From: Nitrospirota bacterium
Lineage (GTDB): Bacteria > Nitrospirota > Thermodesulfovibrionia > Thermodesulfovibrionales > UBA6898
NCBI GenBank assembly: GCA_016235245.1
Contig: JACRLO010000001.1
Coordinates: forward strand, 62,001 to 126,000
DNA: 64,000 nucleotides
Direction of reading: 5' to 3'
This document shows, one piece after another, positions 16,869-19,030 of the stretch. Below the pieces are notes generated by a model. It did no database searches and was not told where the DNA came from. It saw nothing but the letters and a program-made list of their open reading frames with translations. The first letter of the stretch is position 1. Every line of letters begins with the position of its first letter. Made by a program: the position numbers and the translations under genes.

Positions 16869-17099
16869 ATGTCATATCAGGATGAAGTAGAAAAAATCGC
16901 ATACGAACTTTACGAAGCAAGCGGGAGGATTAGCGGCCGTGATCTTGACAACTGGATTGAGGCAGAGCACATCGTGGCACGCAAGTATGCTCAGAAGAAA
17001 AGCGGGAACAGGCAGGGAAAAGAAACTACAGCAGACTGCGGCAAAAATGTCCCTCAGAAGCGCAAACAGCCGGCTGGCGACAGGATGGCAGTGGCATAA
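16869..17099 (+). CDS. DUF2934 domain protein
   Basis: The 76-residue protein carries the DUF2934 signature IAYELYEASGRISGRDLDNWIEAEHIV (split here as IAYELYEASGR and DLDNWIEAEHIV, residues 10-36), followed by a basic, low-complexity tail. The family's function is unknown. A strong GGAGG lies 6 bases before the ATG. It opens the run of small plus-strand genes that diverges from the sensor kinase and is 2 bases from the next gene. Confidence 0.75.
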   Translation: MSYQDEVEKIAYELYEASGRISGRDLDNWIEAEHIVARKYAQKKSGNRQGKETTADCGKNVPQKRKQPAGDRMAVA

Positions 17100-17101
17100 G
17101 T

Positions 17102-17533
17102 ATGGGCTTTTTGTATGCAGAAGACCACAACAAGCTGTTCAAACAACTGCAGGAATCTTACTGCCTTCGACCTGAAGATATACTTTTCGTCAATAATATC
17201 GCTGGATGGTGCAGACAGCAGGGCATTCAGGAACCTGACAGGGAAAGGCCGCTTAAACTCGTCACGAGCAGTCCGCAGGGCTGCAAGATGCTGATCAGTC
17301 GTGTCGCCACTGATCAGGAGATCGAGCAGCGGATCAATGCTCTGCGCATCAGAAATCAGCTTAATAGTGCTACAGAGGACCTGGCAGAGAGACTGAACTC
17401 GGACAGAAAGAAGTTTGCCTATCTTTTTTTGGCGGAATACGCCGCAAGCCTGCCGGAGATCGGGCAGGACGAACTGCTGGCAGATGTCTGGGCGTTTAAA
17501 GAAATGGAACGGCTGAATTTTTTCAAGGCGTAA
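17102..17533 (+). CDS. Unknown small protein in DsrC-like gene run
   Basis: I do not recognise this 143-residue protein. It looks soluble and helical, with three cysteines (YCLRP, GWCRQ, GCKML) in the first 65 residues and an acidic, leucine-rich helix at the C-terminus (FLAEYAASLPEIGQDELL). It starts 2 bases after the DUF2934 gene with only a weak AGGATGG upstream, so translation is likely coupled. Ten bases separate it from the next gene, so the four genes probably form one transcript. Confidence 0.65.
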   Translation: MGFLYAEDHNKLFKQLQESYCLRPEDILFVNNIAGWCRQQGIQEPDRERPLKLVTSSPQGCKMLISRVATDQEIEQRINALRIRNQLNSATEDLAERLNSDRKKFAYLFLAEYAASLPEIGQDELLADVWAFKEMERLNFFKA

Positions 17534-17543
17534 AGGAGGAACA

Positions 17544-17915
17544 ATGGGCTACACAGTTGTCGCACTAAAAAATAGAATCATGGAGATGTACCCGGAGATC
17601 GAAACAAACGGTGTCATGATGAGTCTTGTCTTCAATAAGGATAACGATACCTATTTTATCAGTTTCAGCAAAGGGCTGAATGCATTTGCTACCCATCTGC
17701 AAAGGAATGAAGTTGATAAATGTATGGACGGCATCAAATTCGTCTTTTTGGGTTTTCAGATAGGACGCTGGCTGCAGAGTTTCGTATCCGGTCAGACGCA
17801 GACAACCGACAGTCCTGCCTTACAAACCGGCCGTCAGCAGGAGCCGGAGCGCGGCCATTACCGATGGCCCGACAACAGGAAGGAGGAGCCATGGGCTACA
17901 CAGTTGTCGCACTAA
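17544..17915 (+). CDS. Small protein duplicating the N-terminal domain of the next gene
   Basis: The 123-residue protein has no recognised family. Residues 1-83 match residues 1-82 of the following DsrC-like protein at about half of positions, and 19 of the first 20 residues are identical. After residue 85 the sequence becomes hydrophilic and unlike the partner (QTGRQQEPERGH), and its end runs through the next gene's ribosome binding site, overlapping it by 25 bases. AAGGAGGA stands about 5 bases before the ATG. It looks like a tandem duplicate that lost or never had the DsrC part. Confidence 0.7.
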   Translation: MGYTVVALKNRIMEMYPEIETNGVMMSLVFNKDNDTYFISFSKGLNAFATHLQRNEVDKCMDGIKFVFLGFQIGRWLQSFVSGQTQTTDSPALQTGRQQEPERGHYRWPDNRKEEPWATQLSH

Positions 17916-18137
17916 AAAATAAAATCATGGAGATGTACCCGGAGATCGAGAAGAACGGCATCCTTGTGGGTCTTGTCTTCCATGAAGAAAAGAATGCCTA
18001 TGTCGTCAATTTCAGAAAAGGGGCCCATCTGCTCTCTACCCATCTTGAGAAGAAGGATGCTGATGAGTGTATGGACGGGTTTAAATGCGTACATCTGGGA
18101 GGCCAGATAGGGCAGTTCATTAAGAATTTTATTAGTG
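17544..18137 (+). repeat. Tandem gene-segment duplication
   Basis: Two copies of an 82-83 codon domain start at 17544 and 17891, 347 bases apart. The first 59 bases of the copies differ at only one position, while the remainder has diverged to about 45% amino-acid identity. Each copy has its own AAGGAGG-type ribosome binding site. Confidence 0.85.
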
Positions 18138-18502
18138 ACCGGCCCCCGGTGCCGGAGATGCTGATGATAGAATGCTGTGGATATTCAGCCTGTATTGATA
18201 ATGACGGCTATCTGCTAAATTTTCATGACTGGAATGAAAGCATTGCCTTCGGTCTGGCAGAGAGGGAGGGAATAAAGGAACTGACCGATGATCAGATCGA
18301 TATTCTGAAATTCGTTAGAGCCCACTACGAGCAGTACAATTATTTTCCGATCATCAGATCTATCTGTAAGAACCTGCATCAGGATAAGGACTGCCTCAGC
18401 GAAAAGTTTGTGAATCCGGCTATTGTATGGAAGCTGGCCGGGCTGCCGAAACCCGACGCAGTGATCATGAATCTCCTGGAGCATAACGAACCGCCCACAT
18501 GA
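17891..18502 (+). CDS. DsrC/TusE-like protein lacking both redox cysteines, with extra N-terminal domain
   Basis: The 203-residue protein joins an 82-residue unknown domain, duplicated from the gene before, to a DsrC/TusE-like domain. The DsrC match is clear: a short strand pair (ACIDNDGYLLNFHDWNE), then AEREGIKELTDDQIDILKF, VRAHYEQYNYFP and WKLAGLPKP at the end. DsrC carries sulfur on a Cys in the last residues (GCV) and a second Cys about ten before; here those places are DAV and IVW, so persulfide chemistry at these sites is not possible. Other cysteines (ECC, AC, CK) lie elsewhere. A regulatory role is inference. AAGGAGGA precedes the ATG. Confidence 0.75.
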   Translation: MGYTVVALKNKIMEMYPEIEKNGILVGLVFHEEKNAYVVNFRKGAHLLSTHLEKKDADECMDGFKCVHLGGQIGQFIKNFISDRPPVPEMLMIECCGYSACIDNDGYLLNFHDWNESIAFGLAEREGIKELTDDQIDILKFVRAHYEQYNYFPIIRSICKNLHQDKDCLSEKFVNPAIVWKLAGLPKPDAVIMNLLEHNEPPT

Positions 18503-18586: not shown

Positions 18587-19030
18587 ATGTCCTGTATTAC
18601 CGCAAGAGATATCATGTATCCGAGGGTAAGTATTCCGGCCAAAATGAAGGGGGATGAAGTGGTCCAGAAGCTGATGTGTCCCTATCCTGCTCTGCCGGTA
18701 ATTAACGATGATTATGAGGTCGTCGGTATCGTCTCTGAATTCGATCTTTTAAGTGCCGTCAAAGAGGGAAGGACGATCCACGAGTTCAGCGCCGAATCGA
18801 TCATGAGCTGCGGCCATCCTGACCACAACGTCTGCAGCAAACCGGTCACCGTGTCGGTAGAGACATCGGTCGAAGACCTTGCATCTTTGCTGTTTTCTGA
18901 CAGCTTCACGGTCCTTCCGGTCGTGCAGGACAAGATGCTGGTCGGACTTATCACCAGAAAAAGCGTGATAAATGCGATGGCAGAACAGGGATACTGGCAT
19001 GAGATGGATTTCCAAAAGAGAACACCATAG
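18587..19030 (+). CDS. Stand-alone CBS-pair protein
   Basis: The 147-residue protein is little more than two CBS motifs: residues about 3-62 (ARDIMYPRVSIP, LPVINDDYEVVGIVSEFDLL) and about 72-140 (MSCGHPDHNVCSKPVTVS, LPVVQDKMLVGLITRKSV). CBS pairs bind adenine nucleotides and usually signal energy state; the partner is unknown. The ATG at 18587 follows TAGGAGG by 6 bases, which is why I do not use the longer frame from 18518. Two cysteines in the inter-CBS loop are unusual. It lies 84 bases after the DsrC-like gene on the same strand. Confidence 0.88.
   Translation: MSCITARDIMYPRVSIPAKMKGDEVVQKLMCPYPALPVINDDYEVVGIVSEFDLLSAVKEGRTIHEFSAESIMSCGHPDHNVCSKPVTVSVETSVEDLASLLFSDSFTVLPVVQDKMLVGLITRKSVINAMAEQGYWHEMDFQKRTP

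Follow-up and report, generated by a model that had tools for sequence, protein, structure and literature searches.

What can a protein of the DsrC family do when it carries neither of the cysteines on which the sulfur chemistry of this family depends, and why should it be joined to an additional N-terminal domain? The question is raised by a gene in a stretch of 64,000 nucleotides from a Nitrospirota bacterium (assembly GCA_016235245.1, contig JACRLO010000001.1, positions 62,001 to 126,000), referred to here as the window. It has a practical side, as dsrC counts serve as indicators of sulfur metabolism and annotation usually makes a DsrC-family protein a sulfur carrier. An earlier note on this DNA regarded the product as a cysteine-free DsrC relative fused to an unnamed domain of 82 residues, which may act as a sensor, its borrowed DsrC surface binding sulfite reductase or a similar partner. 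The features of the locus are collected in Table 1, where N and D stand for the N-terminal and the DsrC-like domain.

Table 1. Features around the N-D fusion gene (positions counted from the first nucleotide of the window).
Feature	Position	Strand	Basis
DUF2934 protein, opening the same-strand run	16869..17099	+	PF11154, E 1e-8
143-aa protein of the unnamed family c11	17102..17533	+	Found again next to N, D, Tpx or SOD genes of relatives
Second, stand-alone N-domain copy, 123 aa, tandem to the fusion	17544..17915	+	ORF; sequence comparison
N-D fusion gene, 203 aa	17891..18502	+	ORF translation; ribosome-binding site AAGGAGG upstream
N domain, residues 1-82 of the fusion	17891..18136	+	Alignments; models with pLDDT 82-84.5
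DsrC-fold domain (D), ~residues 91-190; CysA absent, W180 in place of CysB	18161..18460	+	PF04358, TIGR03342, structure matches
CX8C pair C159...C168, subfamily-specific	18365..18394	+	C159 kept in 71/74 and C168 in 69/74 distinct D sequences
CBS-domain protein directly downstream of the fusion; also in G002	18587..19030	+	PF00571; synteny

Two start codons come into consideration for the fusion gene. An in-frame ATG at 17720 would extend the reading frame to 260 residues, and the start at 17891 was favoured, as the one preceded by AAGGAGG and coinciding with the MGYT at which the relatives begin. Full-length orthologues of the fusion are found in the genomes G002 (76% identity) and G006 (60%).

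The C-terminal part of the protein does belong to the DsrC/TusE fold, as first proposed, and both the profile search and the comparison of an AlphaFold model with DsrC led to this family. Residues 99-190 match the Pfam DsrC family (PF04358) with an E-value of 2e-18 and 67.2 bits, against a cut-off of 24.9, and the fusion scores 61.7 bits with TIGR03342, whose cut-off is 53.5. The model, built from a 49-sequence alignment (mean pLDDT 84.5, pTM 0.54), aligns over residues 91-192 with the solved DsrC structure 3or1_C (Z 14.8, rmsd 2.0, 102 residues), and a second solved DsrC, 2xsj_C, reaches a TM score of 0.82 by target. With DsrC, the gamma partner of dissimilatory sulfite reductase, D also shares the D..GYL motif, W114 and the AGLPKP stretch. 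A search of a plasmid collection returned only partial matches in the DsrC/TusE range.

The differences lie in the cysteines and in the C-terminus. The penultimate cysteine of DsrC and TusE is strictly conserved and constitutes their sulfur-binding site (PMC3397948). At this place (CysA) a cysteine stands in 22 of 23 canonical DsrC sequences, whereas there is none among the common residues of 74 D sequences; the CysB place is likewise a cysteine in 22 of the 23 canonical proteins, but a tryptophan in 66 of the 74. The corresponding residues of the fusion are W180 and ~V191, so that both sulfur-carrying sites are lost, just as the earlier note had read them. Moreover, the C-terminus of D runs for ~15 residues beyond LPKP, about 11 more than in canonical DsrC, which ends 4 residues after this motif. 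By its fold D belongs with DsrC, but it lacks the residues of a DsrC/TusE sulfur carrier. TusE, the DsrC-family sulfur carrier of tRNA 2-thiouridine synthesis, has the same fold and, like D, no cysteine at the CysB position, but it retains the penultimate one. The dsrC_1 of SUP05 phages, as portrayed in the relevant part of PMC4164917, likewise differs from canonical DsrC in its C-terminal cysteines, as well as in a stretch of 7-8 residues; unlike D, it has a viral context, and that part of the source describes no N domain or ROS cluster.

The description as cysteine-free, however, does not hold. D carries the conserved C159 and C168, placed by the model in a helix (155-161) and at the start of the next (168-172), in columns that canonical DsrC fills with V and K, and N has a conserved pair of its own (C60 and C66). 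By the alignments, the D subfamily has swapped one cysteine pair for another. The CX8C motif is absent from three D proteins (G057, G075), and one locus of G057 (L071:4866-5580) holds a tandem pair of D-like genes without it. Two D members from Desulfobacterota-type genomes (L159:1477-1806 and L160:1477-1806) have a cysteine at CysB (IACKIAGIPK) together with CX8C and no CysA, and are possible intermediates.

The N domain has remained as nameless as it was first found, with no Pfam or NCBIfam family above cut-off and no significant match among PDB chain sequences (best E 0.04). Its conserved residues read MGYT...EMYPE...THLEKKDADEC-X5-C, and among 73 sequences C60 is invariant, with C66 and H51 conserved at 90% or more. 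When N is modelled alone from these sequences, an alpha-beta-beta-beta-alpha-alpha arrangement is obtained (pLDDT 82, pTM 0.64). Matches to tRNA synthetases and DUF1947 were dropped as below cut-off. A fold search with the model gave HPF/RaiA and dsRBD-like rows with Z ~5, the best one (4hei_A, Z 5.6) being tied with unrelated chains, and Foldseek gave a best E of 0.07; these weak rows were treated as a common arrangement and not as an assignment. No relative of N was found in viral contigs.

How widespread are these two domains? When a D profile was run over 101 relatives at the order level, 62 genomes scored at least 115 bits, followed by a gap down to 86 bits, the level at which canonical DsrC proteins appear. 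Passing the Pfam and TIGRFAM cut-offs without either working cysteine, the subfamily in these 62 genomes would cause misannotation. N occurs in 57 genomes of the same set, and 80 named GTDB loci with N come mostly from Nitrospirota (Thermodesulfovibrionia), with a few from Actinomycetota (Aquicultor), Syntrophobacteraceae and other Deltaproteobacteria; in genomes of these latter types D is present too. N and D are mostly separate neighbour genes; in the 21 pairs that were tabulated, D comes after N at a distance of 17-79 nt. Fusions of the two occur in the window genus (G000, which is the window genome, G002 and G006) and in the Thermodesulfovibrio-type genus g19. In a tree of D with 97 rows, canonical DsrC forms a single long, fully supported branch, and since well-supported branches of the tree force two gains, the N-D fusion arose at least twice. 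In one g19 genome (G083:C1:1104348-1104592), N is interrupted by stop codons or a frameshift beside an intact SOD gene, and no D was found there; either the locus is decaying or the assembly is in error.

The genomic company of N and D differs from that of DsrC. Same-strand genes of oxygen and ROS defence (SOD, rubrerythrin, nitroreductase, ferritin-like proteins and Tpx) lie within 4 kb of 46 of the 80 N loci and 15 of 47 D loci, as compared with none of 20 loci of canonical DsrC to which the same queries were applied, although these counts come from related loci and are not independent; no such gene was seen near the other 34 N loci and 32 D loci. In many families a single strand carries, in this order, an EncFtn-like or rubrerythrin gene, a nitroreductase, an Fe/Mn SOD, N and D, followed by a 2-oxoacid:ferredoxin oxidoreductase, DUF255, Tpx or WrbA-like gene, and the neighbour domains were confirmed with Pfam. 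The spacing is that of operons, with 11-30 nt between SOD and N in most cases and 17-27 nt between SOD and D; in g19, where the order is SOD, N-D fusion and PFOR, only 2 nt separate D from PFOR. SOD also stands upstream of N in three Actinomycetota/Aquicultor loci (L150, L151 and L153). In the window genome and in G002, no SOD or rubrerythrin gene lies near the fusion, and SOD and nitroreductase of the window genome are found together on another contig (C5). The fusion has left the ROS-gene neighbourhood in the window genome, and its link with ROS defence is one of family, not of position.

Most of these neighbours are iron proteins, and together with the conserved Cys/His sets of N and D they raise the possibility of an Fe- or Zn-binding pair, for instance an iron supply or buffer for Fe-SOD, rubrerythrin and ferritin-like proteins, with C-X5-C and H51 as ligands in N and C-X8-C and H163 in D. 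A 4Fe-4S ferredoxin gene often comes directly after N (13 adjacent pairs), which points in the same direction. H163, however, is kept in only 55 of the 74 D sequences, and the fusion of D to the thiol enzyme Tpx described below lends no support to metal binding, which we consider quite improbable.

Is there still a connection with sulfite reductase? The DsrC fold and the presence of dsrA in the hosts speak for a sensor whose DsrC surface would dock onto dissimilatory sulfite reductase or onto a partner in sulfur relay. However, neither the gene nor its relatives show any dsr linkage; CysA, CysB and a free penultimate C-terminus are all missing; and the window genome (3.25 Mb) has, away from the fusion, a dsrA and a normal DsrC that has kept its two cysteines (C12:78676-78993). 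N was recovered when it was sought in other genomes, as had been advised. As to tracking, dsrA is present in 96 of the 101 relatives, and its near-universality makes a comparison with D uninformative (within-family P 0.12). One genome that is 96% complete (G084) has D and no dsrA match. The association with SOD is of a different kind, as SOD occurs in 57 of 62 D-positive and 15 of 39 D-negative genomes (Fisher p 1e-8), and it persists in within-family permutations (P 0.0037), as does that between D and N (P 0.001); between N and SOD, once families are controlled, it is not significant (P 0.35). Given this co-occurrence, the ROS clusters and the Tpx fusion, the sulfite-reductase sensor of the earlier note is poorly supported and was judged very unlikely indeed. 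Relatives of family f3 (genera g12, g34 and others, sampled within the 101 genomes) mostly go without N, D and Fe/Mn SOD together and have kept dsrA.

A sensor of another sort, a redox-sensing transcription regulator, deserves more attention. Its helix-turn-helix-like part would bind DNA, and oxidation of C159 and C168 would switch the control of its own ROS-defence operon, inside which D is in fact located. A sub-threshold match to LexA_DNA_bind (E 0.004) covers residues 129-162 and ends beside C159, the two cysteines falling in and just after the HTH-like part, and sub-threshold HTH_36 matches appear in 2 of 19 members. The DsrC of A. vinosum reportedly binds DNA upstream of dsr, and cysteine-less DsrC relatives of the RspA type (reportedly treated by Venceslau et al. 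in 2014), which resemble D in belonging to the DsrC family without the canonical cysteines, have been proposed as regulators. Against such a role, the HTH scores are under the cut-offs, and an alignment of the regions upstream of SOD in five Thermodesulfovibrio-type operons reveals a conserved sigma-70-like TTGACA/TAT and no clear operator. A fusion to an enzyme also fits a regulator less well, and we deem this explanation unlikely. Among the papers searched for links between DsrC and SOD or HTH, none was relevant.

The enzyme in question is a thiol peroxidase. In G023, a protein of 285 residues joins Tpx (PF08534, 3.7e-26) in frame to a D domain (PF04358, 2.6e-14) at L069:9899-10756, a locus also recorded as L087:333-1190. 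It is syntenic with the window, both showing the order DUF2934, c11 and a third gene beside a divergent PAS sensor kinase/response regulator, with Tpx-D as the third gene in G023. No second Tpx-D was found among 176 genomes of the order, so this fusion is a single case. Hybrids of a peroxiredoxin with its own reductant domain exist, such as Prx-Grx. Tpx-D resembles them in joining a peroxiredoxin to a domain with a cysteine pair, but here the partner has a DsrC fold instead of a thioredoxin fold, and its activity is putative.

Taken with the cysteines and the gene neighbourhoods, this architecture is consistent with D and N being a thiol-redox accessory of oxygen- and ROS-defence enzymes, an explanation to which we give an even chance. 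D would represent a DsrC branch departed from dissimilatory sulfur metabolism, which would serve SOD, rubrerythrins, ferritin-like proteins, nitroreductase and thiol peroxidase as an accessory. Its redox chemistry would most likely have shifted from the cysteines of the C-terminal arm to C159-X8-C168, and N, whose small alpha/beta fold carries a separate C-X5-C, would act jointly with D as a thiol-redox adaptor. Such an adaptor may hold its clients reduced or in touch with their electron donor; these would be the ROS enzymes or 2-oxoacid:ferredoxin oxidoreductase, an oxygen-labile enzyme encoded beside some of them. The family and its genomic context are well supported; from them we infer the chemistry, that is, redox-active cysteine pairs, binding between N and D, and a partner among these enzymes. 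The conserved pair could instead bind metal or be structural. A more specific version, in which the DsrC fold was recruited as a thiol-redox module by moving its cysteines from arm to core and became, with a new small partner, a reductant or redox adaptor for Tpx, SOD and rubrerythrin in anaerobic Nitrospirota, is put forward tentatively and is rather doubtful as a whole. Even so, these observations suggest a testable new role for the DsrC fold in the oxygen survival of sulfate-reducing Nitrospirota, and the same involvement for N, an undescribed family of small proteins.

Some observations concern the remaining genes. A small 4Fe-4S ferredoxin gene follows N after ~15-95 nt at L085, L087, L090, L096, L108, L126, L127, L128, L130 and L139, and this pairing, mostly without an adjacent D, is a second conserved partnership of N. 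The stand-alone N copy of the window overlaps the fusion gene by 25 nt and is 52% identical to its N domain; at the nucleotide level, the tandem genes agree at 58 of the first 60 positions and at 120 of the remaining 186, and the same pair in G002 agrees at 52 of the first 60. The neighbours of the fusion in the window genome are the DUF2934, c11 and CBS proteins and a TPR protein. It is uncertain whether the CBS-domain protein is a member of the N/D system; the DUF2934 gene recurs at the Tpx-D locus and again close to the fusion of G006. The c11 protein has no Pfam or NCBIfam match, and members of its family, ~140 residues long and in some cases with three cysteines, are encoded near N, D, Tpx or SOD genes at L044, L065, L087, L099, L191, L200 and L210.
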